From positions 1 to 61,701 of IMG/VR virus record IMGVR_UViG_3300013131_000046: a stretch of 61,701 bases of DNA; one strand, given 5' to 3'. Shown piece by piece: positions 22,073 through 28,860 of the stretch; position 1 is the first letter of the stretch, and every line of letters starts with the position of its first letter. The stretch is from a virus. Below the pieces are notes generated by a model that made no database searches, was not told where the DNA came from, and was given only the letters and a program-made list of their open reading frames with translations. The position numbers were made by a program, and so were the translations under genes.

Positions 22073-23770
22073 TTATTGAACACCGTTCAATTGGAACTGG
22101 TTATATGAAGAGAGAGCACTCGCAGCATTTGTCGTAGTAACGATCGTAGTATTTGTTACGTTATTGGTTGGTCCAACAGTCGTTCTATTATCTACTATCG
22201 CTGGAGCAGCTACGGCTGAAGGTATGCCAGCACGAGCCGCATCCTCTTGTACACGCTGAGCCGCTAATTGCGCACGTTGATCTCTTGCTTCAAGCTGAAC
22301 TTGTGCTATTCTATTTGCACCGTCGTTTTGTCTTGACTGAACAGCTGCTCGAGCTCTTGCAACAGCATCATCACTAACAAGATAGTCTCCAATATCAGTA
22401 TTGTTTAGATACTCTAAAGCGCTTAAGTAGATTCTATCTGGAATCGATGCTACCCAGTTTGAAAAGTTAATGAAGCCTATCTTGAAATTTTCCATCGTGT
22501 TGATCCAAAAATCTTCGAATGCGTCAACAAGCTTACCAGGAATTGCAGAAATCCAGTCAACAACAGAATAGAATAACTCAGTAATACTAAAGCTGTCGAG
22601 CCAATCTGAAGCATTCTCGAATCCAAATAAATCTGCAGCCCATGACACCAAGTCTTTTACTAAGTCAAGAGGCTTTGTCACGAGAGTAGTGAACGCTTCG
22701 GTGAAATATGTCCCGATACCACCCATGATATCGCCGGAAGCAAATTCGGAATAAATGTTATCAAACGATCCAACAAGTGAACTTATAATTCCACTGCCTA
22801 GATCGAATATACCACTGACGAACCGTGAGAACAATTCGCTAAAACTAAATGAGTCTAGAGTTTCTGCTGCGTTCTCGAATCCAAGCTTACTTAATGCCCA
22901 AGAAGCTAGGTCTTTTAATAGATCAAGCGGGCCAAAGATAAGAGAGTTAAAGAATCCGGTGATCGCACCTTCAAGAGCTCCGACGATTCCACCTTCTGTA
23001 TATCCAGCAATAATGCCTTTAACAGTATCAATGGCTGTCATAACAATCGTTAGTGGTAAGAACAGTTTTCCAACGACACCGCTTATTTTAGATATCGTGG
23101 AGCCAAACGATTTAAAATACGCGAACATATCAGTCACCTTTGTAGTCACACCAAAAACGCTGTTCGCTAGGGTTGCAATAGTCTTTGCGGCTTGAGTAAA
23201 CGGAGCAGCCAATTTTAAAAAGAAATCTTTGAACTGATTAAGTGGGCTGAGCGCGCCAAACACCGCAGTTTTTGCTGAGGTAATTACATTCTTACCCATA
23301 TCAGCAAAGCCAGTTAGTGCTTTCGTAATTGATGAGCTCACACTCTGTAACGCGTCAAGAATTTTTGCTGGAGTGAAAAATTTAATCGCGTCGATCCATC
23401 CTTTGAATACACCAATTGTTCCACCGATGGCTGCAGCAGCGAGAGTTGAAAACAATCCTAACTTCATTAATGGCCGACCATCTCCGCCTGAATCACCTCC
23501 ACCTCCACCGTCACCAGAATCATCGCCACCATCACCTTCATCTGCCTGTGGGCCGCCGCCGTATTGTCTTGATCGAGTAGCGTCCTGTAGGAAGTCTGTT
23601 ATAGTAGAATTGTTAGTGCTGATAAGATCTAATTGAGCATCCATTCTATCACGAACATCACGAGAGACTTCAATCAAAGCTTTGATTGAATTTGTTCCGG
23701 TGTTACGCGTAAGCTGGCCTTCAAGCTTAATGCGTTCGATTAAGTCTGATACAGTATTCTCGGCGACCAT
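22073..23770 (-). CDS. Tail tape-measure / gp29-like protein
   Basis: 565 residues (T4 gp29 590). Helical N-terminus, a Gly/Asp-rich linker near 70-98, then long hydrophobic helices typical of tape measures. Two internal copies of a motif L-D-L-x-K-D-L-x-S-W-A-x-x-x-x-G-F-E-N-A-x-x-x-L-D-S-F-S are about 95 residues apart. The start overlaps the preceding short frame (TAATG). It sets tail length and is stored in the tail lumen. Position after gp26-like genes agrees. Confidence 0.82.
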   Translation of the reverse strand: MVAENTVSDLIERIKLEGQLTRNTGTNSIKALIEVSRDVRDRMDAQLDLISTNNSTITDFLQDATRSRQYGGGPQADEGDGGDDSGDGGGGGDSGGDGRPLMKLGLFSTLAAAAIGGTIGVFKGWIDAIKFFTPAKILDALQSVSSSITKALTGFADMGKNVITSAKTAVFGALSPLNQFKDFFLKLAAPFTQAAKTIATLANSVFGVTTKVTDMFAYFKSFGSTISKISGVVGKLFLPLTIVMTAIDTVKGIIAGYTEGGIVGALEGAITGFFNSLIFGPLDLLKDLASWALSKLGFENAAETLDSFSFSELFSRFVSGIFDLGSGIISSLVGSFDNIYSEFASGDIMGGIGTYFTEAFTTLVTKPLDLVKDLVSWAADLFGFENASDWLDSFSITELFYSVVDWISAIPGKLVDAFEDFWINTMENFKIGFINFSNWVASIPDRIYLSALEYLNNTDIGDYLVSDDAVARARAAVQSRQNDGANRIAQVQLEARDQRAQLAAQRVQEDAARAGIPSAVAAPAIVDNRTTVGPTNNVTNTTIVTTTNAASALSSYNQFQLNGVQ

Positions 23771-23928
23771 TAGCTTTCCTTTTTAGATTCGATGAAGCGA
23801 ATTAGCATATCATAGTAAATGTCTCGTTCAAATGGTATTAAGTTTTCAATTTCACTTATTTGGTATTTATGGTGTTGAGCCAATCCAAACACTACTTGAT
23901 AGTAGATTTGTAGATTGGTATGGCTCAA
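23770..23928 (-). CDS. Short frame before tape measure, probably expressed as -1 frameshift extension of gp26
   Basis: 52 codons from a weak TTG (23928) to TAA overlapping the tape-measure ATG. Sequence IYYQVVFGLAQHHKY and EIENLIPFERDIYYDMLIRF resembles the short conserved protein that precedes tape measures in T4-like phages. There is no ribosome-binding site and no ATG. The frame is open upstream through the T7 run at 23937-23943 into the end of the gp26-like gene, so translation by -1 slippage is more likely than independent initiation. Confidence 0.72.
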   Translation of the reverse strand: MSHTNLQIYYQVVFGLAQHHKYQISEIENLIPFERDIYYDMLIRFIESKKES

Positions 23929-23930
23929 CG

Positions 23931-24629
23931 TTAGGTAAAAAAAGTTTCTACACCTTGAGCAACAAACGTTTTGGTTTTTCCAGTTTTATCAGTGTAAGTT
24001 GTTTCGTATTTCATGACGGGAATTGTGTCGAAGAATTTTTTGATTTGTGCGACAATAACGGAGCTAAGAGATTCAATAAAGTCTTCGACTTCTGCTTCAC
24101 TGAAATCGGCCAATTTATATGACTGGTCACCATCGGAAATAGAATTTATACATTCCTTCATAATACTGTTTAATGAATCGCTCTCGCTTTGACCATCTTT
24201 GAGGCTCTCTAAATACGAAATAGATGGGTAACGCATTTCAATCATAATATCATCGTTTACTTTAATGATTTTATTATGATCTGGAAACTTAACGATCTGG
24301 ATGTTGTCGATGTTAATAGTAAGATCTACTTTTTCTTCAGTATCTGGATCTTTAATACTAAATGAAATCTCGTTGTTCACCGACTTAGCTCGAATATTCA
24401 GTAAGATATACTCTAAATCGAATATAGCTAATTTTTCAACGTCAGTACTTTGTAAGCAGTTTGTTAAGATTTGTTTAATCGCGAGGAAGATCTGTTTAGG
24501 ATCTTTTGACTCTTGTGCAATAAGTAGAATCTTTTCTTCTTTTACTGTGAACGGGCGATATTTGACTTTCTTTCCAGTTGATGGAACTTCAAGTTCAAAA
24601 AGTGGTAAATCAATCTTGGGTAAACCCAT
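23931..24629 (-). CDS. gp26: gp26-like baseplate hub / tail assembly chaperone protein
   Basis: 232 residues. V-K-Y-R-P-F-T-V-K-E-E-K-I-L-L-I-A-Q-E-S and LEYILLNIRAKS are the signature of the T4 gp26 family (PF12322). The C-terminus ends V-E-T-F-F-T at a T TTT TTT run (23937-23943) right before the stop. In many tailed phages a chaperone gene at this place yields a frameshifted longer form; here the longer form would be about 286 residues. Confidence 0.85.
   Translation of the reverse strand: MGLPKIDLPLFELEVPSTGKKVKYRPFTVKEEKILLIAQESKDPKQIFLAIKQILTNCLQSTDVEKLAIFDLEYILLNIRAKSVNNEISFSIKDPDTEEKVDLTINIDNIQIVKFPDHNKIIKVNDDIMIEMRYPSISYLESLKDGQSESDSLNSIMKECINSISDGDQSYKLADFSEAEVEDFIESLSSVIVAQIKKFFDTIPVMKYETTYTDKTGKTKTFVAQGVETFFT
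23937..23943 (-). promoter_or_regulatory. Candidate -1 ribosomal slippery site T TTT TTT
   Basis: On the minus strand the zero frame reads ACT TTT TTT ACC TAA. After a -1 slip both tRNAs re-pair with TTT and reading continues TAC CTA ACG TTG AGC into the 52-codon frame. It lies six bases before the zero-frame stop. Confidence 0.65.
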
Positions 24630-24641
24630 AGTATAACTCCA

Positions 24642-25394
24642 TTATAATGCACCGAAAATGGTGTTGATGTTTGTGTAAGTAAGAATGAGGTCTTGAATAT
24701 TGCGTGGGCGGTCGATCTGCTGAATTGCTTGGCCGAATCCATTAATCGCGCTAATATACGAAATCAATCCGTTTTGACGATCAAGATCCGGCGCAATTGA
24801 AGCATACTCAACAGTTTCAAGAGTAAGTGAATCATACTCGAAATTAACTGGTAGAGACATCACATCACTTTGATTTTCCCACGACATATCAACAGTGCCG
24901 ATTGAAACCGGATATGCTTTATCGAATGTGTATTTGTAAACCTTTTGTACGTCGTTTGCTGAAAAGACATATAATTCAATTCGCGCTGCATAGTTATCAC
25001 GATATTCAAATTCATTTGGCAATTTACGATATACATCTTCAGCTGCAACCGCGCCAGTGTTAAAGTTGAAGATCGATTGCATCCACTTGTGGAAGTACTT
25101 CATAACTCCAAACTCTGCATCGACCATGAAGATGAGTGGTAGAGAAGAAGTATTGAAGTCCATTGGGCGCTTATATTCTCTGCCGTAGCCGTGCTGACGG
25201 AATGAAACAGTAGTTAAGTCGAACGATGGAATCTGAGCTGACTTACAGAAGAATGTAAGTTCATTTGACGTAATTGTAGAGCCCACCGTATTACTCAAAG
25301 TAGTCGGGATGGTAATAGCACAATAGAACAGATTGTTTTTTGCTAACCCTCTGTTACTGACATGCGCTTTAAAATCGTTGATGTTGAATACCAT
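24642..25394 (-). CDS. gp54: gp54-like baseplate tail-tube initiator
   Basis: 250 residues. Opens VFNINDFKAHV; has SAQIPSFDLTTVSFRQHGYGREYKRP and a tube-protein-like strand pattern through MSWENQSDVMSLPVNFEYD. This fits the gp54/gp19 family, with gp54 favoured because of length and proximity to the hub and tape-measure genes. It would nucleate tail-tube assembly on the hub. It is 10 bases after the upstream minus-strand gene. Confidence 0.72.
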   Translation of the reverse strand: MVFNINDFKAHVSNRGLAKNNLFYCAITIPTTLSNTVGSTITSNELTFFCKSAQIPSFDLTTVSFRQHGYGREYKRPMDFNTSSLPLIFMVDAEFGVMKYFHKWMQSIFNFNTGAVAAEDVYRKLPNEFEYRDNYAARIELYVFSANDVQKVYKYTFDKAYPVSIGTVDMSWENQSDVMSLPVNFEYDSLTLETVEYASIAPDLDRQNGLISYISAINGFGQAIQQIDRPRNIQDLILTYTNINTIFGAL

Positions 25395-26081: not shown

Positions 26082-26681
26082 ATGACTATTTATAGCATAG
26101 CTACAAAACCGTATTTGTATGTTTGGCTAGACACACTTACAAAAAAGCGTTATATCGGCATTCATAACGGATCACGTGGTTATTCTTACATTGGAAGTGG
26201 CACAGTATTTAGAAGAGAATATAACACTAGGCCAAATGACTTTTTACGCGTAAAAATTATACACCATAGAGATTACAACTATATTCAAAAATTAGAAAGT
26301 CGTTTTTTAAAAAGAGTGCGCGCAGATTTAGATGAGACATATTACAATATGGTCTGGAGAGCTCCACCAAATACACTTGGAAGACAAATGTCAAGTGAAG
26401 AGAAAGCACTAGTATCAAAAAGATTTAGAGGCGTTAAAAAATCTGACTACCAAAGAAAAAAGATGTCTGAAGCAAAAATTGGAAGAAAATATAGCGATAG
26501 ACACAGAGTAAATATGTCAAATGCTCATACAGGGATGATTTTTACTGAATCTCATAAAGAATCTCTTTCAAGTATCGCTAAAGCCAGGCCAACCGTTAAT
26601 TGTCCACATTGCAATAAAATTGGTAAACTTAACCAAATGAAAAGATGGCACTTCGATAACTGCAAACTATTTAATACCTAG
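26082..26681 (+). CDS. GIY-YIG homing endonuclease 3
   Basis: 199 residues. GIY-YIG domain PYLYVWLDTLTKKRYIGIHNG...YIGSGT, then RVKIIHHR, NUMOD3-like repeats (KKMSEAKIGRKYS, VNMSNAHTGMIF), and the C-terminal zinc finger CPHCNKIG...RWHFDNC shared with elements 1 and 2. The GIY domain is from a different branch than those of 1 and 2 while the ends are alike. Its 3' end overlaps gp4 tail-to-tail by 15 bases. AT-rich compared with its neighbours. Confidence 0.88.
   Translation: MTIYSIATKPYLYVWLDTLTKKRYIGIHNGSRGYSYIGSGTVFRREYNTRPNDFLRVKIIHHRDYNYIQKLESRFLKRVRADLDETYYNMVWRAPPNTLGRQMSSEEKALVSKRFRGVKKSDYQRKKMSEAKIGRKYSDRHRVNMSNAHTGMIFTESHKESLSSIAKARPTVNCPHCNKIGKLNQMKRWHFDNCKLFNT
26087..26094 (-). promoter_or_regulatory. 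Late promoter of the minus-strand tail operon, inside homing endonuclease 3 codons
   Basis: TATAAATA on the minus strand, 92 bases before ATG 25995. On the plus strand the same bases encode residues 2-5 (T-I-Y-S) of the endonuclease. Confidence 0.65.
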
Positions 26682-27175: not shown

Positions 27176-28060
27176 ATGGCATTCGTCAGACCAGCCCAAG
27201 ATGTTATTAACAGAAACAGAAGCACATCAAATGTAGCTTCATCTCTTCTGAGGTATCCTTCGGAAGCTACTTCTCATGCAATGATCTTTAACTTTAAAAA
27301 CTACAGCGCAAGACCGGCTGGTGGCACGACTACAGTGTCGAACGGCTCAATTGCTCTTCCATTGCCAAAGACTATTCAAGATGTAACAAGCCCAGACGTA
27401 ATGGGTCGCGAACTTGGAATTACTGGAGCTGCTGTTGTCGATGTTGCTGCAGCAATGAATTCAGATCAAGGATTAGTTGGAGCAGCCACTGACGCGATCA
27501 GTAAGCTCACTGGTGGCAGCGTACTCGATCCTCGTAATGTAAGTGCAAGTGGGCTTGCATCATTTGCAACCTTTGCTGCTCGAGCTGGCTTGACATCCAT
27601 CGGTGGTTCTGAAATTGAACAAGGTTTATCAGTAGGAACCGGCACCGCAGTTAACCCTCACCAAGCTCTTGTATTTAACGGTATCGCTCTGAAACAATAC
27701 ACATTTGAATGGACATTAATTCCAAACAATGAAACCGAGTCAGAACAGATTCGTGATATCGTCAAAAGATTCAAATCTGCTTCACTACCATCTTACGGCG
27801 GAGTAGAAGGTACACAATCAAACGTGTTAAGTCGAGCACTACTGAACTACCCAAATATGGTCGATGTATTCTTTGTTGGTCTTGATCAGAATTACTTTCC
27901 ATTGTTCAAAACGGCGATGATATCGAACGTAACAGTCGACTATACCCCTCAAGGTCATGTTGTTGTAAATAAGGGTCCAACTGGTTCTCGTCCTGCAATG
28001 GTTAACTTAGCTGTTACCATCATTGAATCTGAGATTCATACTCAAGAGGATTACGCATAA
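27176..28060 (+). CDS. gp48: gp48-like baseplate tail-tube cap protein
   Basis: 294 residues (T4 gp48 364). Contains RYPSEATSHAMIFNFKNY, SIALPLPKTIQDVTSPD, an Ala/Gly-rich middle, and the conserved end NPHQALVFNGIALKQYTFEW, then KRFKSASLPSYGG and FKTAMISNVTVDYTP. In T4-like phages gp48 sits on the hub and caps it for tube growth. First gene of the long plus-strand late operon; ends sharing its last base with the gp53 start. Confidence 0.82.
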   Translation: MAFVRPAQDVINRNRSTSNVASSLLRYPSEATSHAMIFNFKNYSARPAGGTTTVSNGSIALPLPKTIQDVTSPDVMGRELGITGAAVVDVAAAMNSDQGLVGAATDAISKLTGGSVLDPRNVSASGLASFATFAARAGLTSIGGSEIEQGLSVGTGTAVNPHQALVFNGIALKQYTFEWTLIPNNETESEQIRDIVKRFKSASLPSYGGVEGTQSNVLSRALLNYPNMVDVFFVGLDQNYFPLFKTAMISNVTVDYTPQGHVVVNKGPTGSRPAMVNLAVTIIESEIHTQEDYA

Positions 28061-28860
28061 TGGCTAAGTATTTTCGCTACTTTCCAAAGATAGAGTACGG
28101 CGGCGAGACCGTAACTGATATTACTCGTCGTGTAAAGGTTGCTGAAAAGCTTCAAGCAGATCCGTATTTGTTTTTACCTTACACTGTAACAAGTGATGAC
28201 CGTCCGGAAGATATCGCGCGCCTATATTATGGAGATGTGAACAAAGTATGGATGATATATCTAGCAAACAACATTATCGACCCATACACGCAATGGCCGC
28301 TCTCAAATGAAAAGTTTGAATCGACGATTCGCAAGAAGTATGCACATTCTATTTCTTTTGCCGGCAATAAAGTAAATGTCTCATCAAATCGTATTACTTC
28401 AACTGCACATGGGTTTAAGACAACTGATCCAGTCATTTATACTGGAAGCCCAGCAATCGCCGGCCTCACATCTGGTACCACATATTATGTTATTCGTGTA
28501 AACTCAAATATCATTAAGCTCGCAACATCTGCAACAAACGCAAGAAATGGCACAGCGATCAATATTACAACCACCACAAACAGTACAGTAACTCATACAT
28601 TGTCACTGAATGTAGATACGTTTTTGTCAAGTACATTGATAGATACAAACGTAGTCTACTGTACAAAAAATACTGATACAACTATTAAAATATCGTATGA
28701 CACCTATCGTTTGGGAGATATAACGGTCGGTGATTGGACACCAGTTCGCGTATACGAATACGAAACACAGCTGAATGAAGATCGTAGAACTATATTCCTT
28801 ATTAATGCCGACTATGCGCAACGAGTCGAAAAAGATTTGAAGAGTTTGTTGAATGGCTAA
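28060..28860 (+). CDS. gp53: gp53-like baseplate wedge protein with an inserted beta domain
   Basis: 266 residues (T4 196). The N-terminal 90 residues match gp53: Y-F-R-Y-F-P-K-I-E-Y, D-D-R-P-E-D-I-A-R-L-Y-Y-G, VWMIYLANNIIDPYTQWPLS. A beta domain follows (about residues 100-185: ITSTAHGFKTTDPVIY, G-T-T-Y-Y-V-I-R-V) of a type found in several virion proteins, then the C-terminal helix. gp53 stabilises the wedge ring around the hub. Confidence 0.85.
   Translation: MAKYFRYFPKIEYGGETVTDITRRVKVAEKLQADPYLFLPYTVTSDDRPEDIARLYYGDVNKVWMIYLANNIIDPYTQWPLSNEKFESTIRKKYAHSISFAGNKVNVSSNRITSTAHGFKTTDPVIYTGSPAIAGLTSGTTYYVIRVNSNIIKLATSATNARNGTAINITTTTNSTVTHTLSLNVDTFLSSTLIDTNVVYCTKNTDTTIKISYDTYRLGDITVGDWTPVRVYEYETQLNEDRRTIFLINADYAQRVEKDLKSLLNG

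Follow-up and report, generated by a model that had tools for sequence, protein, structure and literature searches.

A putative programmed −1 frameshift signal links gp26 to a gp51 domain in relatives of T4

Is gp26 of this phage always read to its own stop codon, or do some ribosomes pass by a programmed −1 frameshift into the small frame that lies between it and the tape measure gene? The window, by which we mean the whole stretch of DNA that was analysed, is a complete IMG/VR record of 61.7 kb. On its minus strand, the zero frame of gp26 closes with GTA GAA ACT TTT TTT ACC TAA, which contains a run of seven T.

gp26 and its −1 extension in the window

The genes and sites that bear on the question are the following.

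24642..25394, minus strand: tail tube protein (gp19/gp54-like), upstream neighbour of gp26 (PF23849, E 1e-12; phrog_45, E 4e-38)
23931..24629, minus strand: gp26 zero frame, 232 aa (PF12322, E 7e-58; phrog_150, E 2e-63; N-terminal fold similar to three solved tail assembly chaperones)
23937..23943, minus strand: slippery heptamer T_TTT_TTT, read from the sequence; T_TTT_TTY/A in 164/164 clusters of relatives
23931..23933, minus strand: zero-frame stop TAA of gp26, one codon past the slip site
23773..23937, minus strand: −1 frame extension, the gp51 domain (T part), 55 aa (phrog_634, E 1e-20; model pLDDT 89)
23770-23772, minus strand: stop of the −1 extension, a TAA overlapping the tape-measure ATG (TAATG)
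22073..23770, minus strand: probable tail tape measure, from its position and a weak match to phrog_1272 'tape measure' (E 0.004)

A preliminary description of this DNA had read the end of gp26 as ACT TTT TTT ACC TAA, followed in the −1 relation by an anonymous 'pre-tape-measure' frame of 52 codons that has a TTG as its only start, no SD motif and an end at the tape-measure ATG. On the minus strand the gp26 end, its coordinates and the frame relation are as described, and so is the small frame: the program-made ORF (23770-23928) encodes 52 aa from a TTG, before which no SD motif was found on reading the sequence, with gp26 and the tape measure gene having one each. The frame is not anonymous, however, as the −1 extension matches phrog_634, the 'baseplate hub assembly catalyst' or gp51 family. 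Joined at the slip site, the two frames would encode a fusion of 231 + 55 = 286 aa, in agreement with the product of about 286 residues that had been expected. One PF12322-type gene was found in the 61.7-kb record, which may be a fragment, and it stands in the −1 relation to the gp51 domain; a separate full-length gp51 with a gp26-like N-terminus, the T4-type two-gene arrangement, was absent from the record.

With a PF12322 profile match of 196 bits against a cut-off of 24.5, and on the basis of its predicted structure, gp26 is probably the short form of a tail assembly chaperone (G, or TAC-N) rather than the 'baseplate hub subunit' of its earlier label. The gp26 model has a pLDDT of 90, and residues 1-93 find 3fgx, 2ob9 and 3klu as their top three PDB folds, with Z scores of 7.9, 7.7 and 6.5 and the next at 4.3; VIA-align scores below 8 can reflect a common arrangement. 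All three structures, of which 2ob9 is HK97 gp13, are called tail assembly chaperones (PMC9603447). With all Z scores under 8 and a match that leaves out gp26 beyond residue 93, the modelled fold is suggestive of a TAC-like N-terminal domain, short of proof. At ~230 aa, gp26 is also longer than the solved TAC chains, which have ~100-120 residues. Searches of the PDB by sequence returned nothing credible, and the TAC match emerged from a second structural comparison, Foldseek by itself having found no significant PDB hit. The extension, modelled separately from gp26, is a small domain of three predicted helices, and on its own it matched no solved fold.

The gene order in the window is tube, gp26, extension and probable tape measure, with the short chaperone ORF between tube and tape measure, and a similar order is found in pf16, phiN3, Melnitz, KVP40 and phiAS5, some with an extra small ORF. 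The probable tape measure (22073-23770, minus strand) has no Pfam match, and its best profile match is phrog_27688, of unknown function. Further upstream, beyond the tail tube gene, are the DNA end protector and head closure genes. Between these two lies an ORF on the opposite strand (26082-26681, plus) with a weak NUMOD3 match (E 0.0016, below the cut-off) and a GIY-YIG match at E 0.08; by sequence, it is possibly a homing endonuclease inserted into the tail cluster. In the gp53-like wedge gene (28060-28860, plus), gp53 similarity is confined to the first ~95 residues, and the next ~80 match tail fibre or large wedge protein domains (phrog_38233, phrog_2885), a profile pattern that suggests an inserted or swapped domain.

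Conservation of the slip site and its probable flanking signals

Because megablast of the region against annotated phages gave no match, relatives were gathered by protein searches. Viral contigs and named phages together yielded 328 loci with a complete gp26, which fall into 164 clusters at <85% nucleotide identity; these clusters are mutually related and not independent. The KVP40 gp26 query contributed two metagenomic loci and the SRB7757 query none. Among the named phages with the arrangement are P-SSM2, HTVC008M, ACG-2014i, pf16, phiN3, Melnitz, KVP40, phiAS5, BUCT608 and SRB7757, and the hosts in the set comprise Synechococcus, Prochlorococcus, Pelagibacter, Methylophilales, Pseudomonas, Sinorhizobium, Vibrio (KVP40), Aeromonas, Stenotrophomonas and Nitratidesulfovibrio.

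The comparison of the T run and frame relation among relatives, which the preliminary description had proposed as a check, bears out both. A heptamer lies near the gp26 end in every one of the 164 clusters (T_TTT_TTC in 95, T_TTT_TTT in 68 and T_TTT_TTA in one), exactly one codon before the stop in 149 of them. In all 159 complete clusters the −1 frame is open for 54-68 aa, while the +1 frame never exceeds 29 aa. The codon that precedes the two Phe codons can stand for any of S, T, D, N, A or G, yet its last base is T in all 164 clusters, whereas T-ending codons make up 34-75% elsewhere; likewise, the first Phe codon is always TTT at the slip site, against 71% at other positions. Within the same 164 genes, the 38,111 internal codon positions hold 18 in-frame T_TTT_TT[TCA] heptamers, whereas every 3′ end (164/164) has one. 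Given synonymous codon usage, the slip pattern has a log10 P of about −66, a value that treats the clusters as independent, which they are not. Judged from these sequence counts, the pattern at the end of gp26 is not due to chance.

On either side of the heptamer we find a further element.

23952..23957, minus strand: position of the putative upstream SD-like stimulator, here the weak CAAGGT; GGAGG or GAGGG in most relatives
23921..23929, minus strand: 5′ arm of the predicted downstream stem, 9 bp in the window, starting 7 nt past the heptamer
23874..23882, minus strand: 3′ arm of this stem, from folding and covariation

An SD-like 4-mer lies 5-20 nt before the heptamer in 112/164 clusters, compared with 14 ± 3.5 in control windows, mostly as GGAGG at a spacing of 10 nt or GAGGG at 9 nt. 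The Glu codon that forms the motif is GAG in 91 of 122 cases, against 28% elsewhere. By position and codon choice, this motif 9-10 nt upstream, as in dnaX, is probably a second frameshift stimulator in most relatives.

The RNA downstream of the slip site in the window folds with an MFE of −23.7 kcal/mol (z −6.0), and the stem starts 6-7 nt downstream of the heptamer. Folding z values downstream are −3.33 (75 nt) in the window lineage and −2.07 (45 nt) in other lineages, versus −0.30 in the control. RNAalifold, unaided, predicted no consensus structure; the stem was therefore picked out in folds of single sequences, with covariation tested afterwards, a choice that favours it in the slide control. 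In the gap-free alignment A2 of 56 window-lineage clusters, the stem pairs columns 16-25 with 64-73. Changes on both sides of the stem amount to 37 cells, against 15 ± 4.7 in shuffles, none of 500 of which reached as high. The top covarying pair joins the first base of a Leu codon to the third base of a Gln codon, both synonymous, with C-G in 25 cases, T-A in 22, C-A in four and T-G in none. Across the entire alignment, columns 71 and 68 find their best partners in 18 and 21, as the predicted stem requires. A search of Rfam over the region returned nothing credible. Taken from folding and covariation, the downstream stem is probably a frameshift stimulator.

The form of this stem may differ between lineages: it is predicted as long-range, with a 38-nt loop, in the window lineage and as a short local hairpin elsewhere. 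Even in the window lineage the long stem is broken at several pairs in about five of the 56 clusters, where other local hairpins are apparently used. In L018, L020, L059 and L060 (A2 columns 14-40), inspection by eye finds the long-range stem lost and, about as far from the slip site, a short hairpin formed locally, which in L018 reads TGCTAGGTT-ATTGC-AACCTAGCA; it is as if the local hairpin had replaced the long stem as stimulator. The local hairpin of cyanophages, of the AGTATGGCTCATGAAGATCTTGAGTCATACT type, was likewise inspected by eye, and we claim no covariation for it because the GGCAC...GCGTC variants have one A-C mismatch.

T4 genes 26 and 51 and the alternatives to a frameshift

In T4, gp26 and gp51 are hub assembly chaperones, and gp51 is needed for assembly but absent from the final particle (PMC3004832). 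Their genes are separate and divergently transcribed. The T4-type gp51 family nevertheless aligns over the gp26 part and the extension together (Prob 99.5, residues 7-249 to 13-289): residues 1-201 of T4 gp51 match PF12322 at 4e-52, and HHalign aligns columns 202-252 of the T4-type gp51 to positions 3-54 of the extension with a Prob of 96. The match of T4-type gp26, by comparison, stops at the point equivalent to the slip site. Since T4 gp51 and the fusion match over their full length, T4 would encode the short form (gp26) and the long form (gp51) separately. The likeness is thus of T4 gp26 to the short form and of T4 gp51 to the complete fusion; the difference is that T4 has two divergent genes and no slip site. 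T_TTT_TT[TCA] is absent in six of six separate-gp51 lineages (T4, Aeromonas 31, Acinetobacter, Proteus, RB43 and Krischvirus). Hence the earlier suggestion that T4-like phages make a G/GT-like pair is supported by the slip site and frame of the relatives, but does not extend to T4 itself, which uses a separate, fused paralogue, gp51.

A tree of the gp26 domain resolves three clean groups, namely frameshift gp26, T4-type gp26 and the N-domain of T4-type gp51, the last two on separate branches. The tree is unrooted, with long T4-type branches, and is silent on the ancestral arrangement. In RB43 (L177 3001-3744 and 3737-4294), unlike divergent T4, the long gp51 and short gp26 stand in tandem on the same strand, a layout that would fit an origin by tandem duplication.

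In 2010, the gp51 of cyanophages and vibriophages was described as lacking the first ~200 residues (PMC3037559). The cyanophage gp51 would look truncated because those residues come from gp26 via the slip.

The small frame might instead be an independent gp51 gene, started from a TTG or ATG by coupling to gp26 termination, with the T run incidental. Termination-reinitiation is common in phages, most GenBank records list the 'baseplate hub assembly catalyst' as a gene of its own, and 97/164 clusters have an ATG within the first 12 codons of the −1 frame. However, in 44/164 clusters the first 12 extension codons contain no ATG, GTG or TTG, though the protein is conserved from the slip site on, and a start with a 4-nt SD occurs in only 8/164; for these reasons we consider independent initiation very unlikely. 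It is also at odds with the heptamer, which is maintained even where synonymous codons would break it and is missing from just those phages that carry a separate gp51 gene of full length, and with the homology of T4 gp51 to the fusion and not to the small frame alone. Relatives with a well-supported start for the small gene and no slippery run, to which the preliminary description had looked as evidence against a frameshift, were not found among the clusters, as the run is missing in 0/164. The T4-type phages do lack it, but their gp51 bears its own gp26-like N-terminus. In the 97 clusters with an early ATG, extra internal initiation may occur alongside the frameshift.

That transcriptional rather than ribosomal slippage on the T run joins the frames, as the seven-T run in the window and many relatives might invite, is hardly credible because most clusters (58%, with T_TTT_TTC) have only six T, and the heptamer phase, covarying stem and SD motif are signatures of ribosomal frameshifting; transcriptional slippage usually needs runs of 9 or more.

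A probable chaperone pair of the G/GT type

We therefore prefer the reading in which gp26 and the gp51 domain form a G/GT-type chaperone pair made by a programmed −1 frameshift, and we hold it with high confidence. The slip site with its frame relation, the SD motif, the covariation of the stem and the full-length homology between T4 gp51 and the fusion are read from the sequences; the slippage itself, its efficiency and the G and GT roles are what we infer from them. Most ribosomes would stop one codon past T_TTT_TTT and release the 232-residue short form (G). A minority would pause at the stem-loop 6-7 nt past the slip site, and in most relatives 16S rRNA pairing with the upstream GGAGG or GAGGG would add to the pause; both phenylalanine tRNAs would then slip back one base, and the gp51 domain would be read to give the 286-residue long form (GT). 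If lambda is a guide, the tape measure protein encoded directly downstream would be coated by many G and few GT molecules, tail tube subunits would be brought in by the gp51 domain, and both forms would be absent from the virion. T4 would make the same two products from its paralogous genes 26 and 51. Our broader proposal, for which we see the case as evenly balanced, is that nearly all T4-like phages outside the T4-type two-gene lineages share one frameshift signal with two stimulators, the SD motif and a stem whose form switches between lineages, and that the T4 26/51 pair is derived, a duplication having removed the need for the signal.

A conserved −1 frameshift in the tail assembly chaperones of long-tailed phages, as in lambda G/GT, was reportedly described by Xu, Hendrix and Duda in 2004. 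The window resembles the lambda system in its order of tube, chaperone and tape measure, in a −1 slip towards the 3′ end of the short gene, in an extension that ends at the tape-measure start and in the TAC-like N-terminal fold. It differs in that the gp26 family (PF12322/phrog_150) has no clear sequence similarity, and in its poly-T heptamer with SD motif and stem. The −1 signal of E. coli dnaX consists of a heptamer, an SD ~10 nt upstream and a stem-loop ~5-7 nt downstream. It is similar in having its heptamer flanked by an upstream SD and a downstream stem-loop, but heptamer, gene and purpose are different and the sequence is unrelated.

The preliminary description knew of no frameshift report for the T4 gp26 family; however, Vladimirov, Gautam and Davidson (2022, Virology 566:9-15) are said, going by their title, to have identified the tail assembly chaperone genes of T4-like phages. 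PRFect, where it cites that work, states that in some T4-like phages a short gene is accompanied by a longer one that is fused (PMC10885494), and a 2025 paper, in its passage citing the same study, mentions slippery poly-T runs in the TAC-N genes of T4-like phages (PMC12846349). To judge by these citing passages, the core idea of a chaperone frameshift in T4-like phages is very likely known already. What may be new is the stem with its covariation, together with the SD motif and the breadth across lineages, and the reading of the short-gp51 puzzle of 2010 as a frameshift product may be undescribed. A 2016 recoding review, which covers the lambda G/GT frameshift, gave T4 as an exception to G-T frameshifting (PMC5009743); our comparison indicates that this exception is confined to the T4-type lineages. 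The proposed pair would also supply a molecular role for gp51, the old 'hub catalyst' of T4, and frameshift and gene duplication together offer a natural pair of solutions with which to probe why the ratio of chaperone forms matters.

In many GenBank records the long form is misannotated or omitted. The gp51 domain is left out, or annotated as hypothetical or as a truncated 'assembly catalyst', in L085 (3205-3393) and in many cyanophage records, and the 'assembly catalyst' entry of HTVC008M is 45 aa only. The phrog_150 profile, for its part, covers both full-length gp51 and short gp26.
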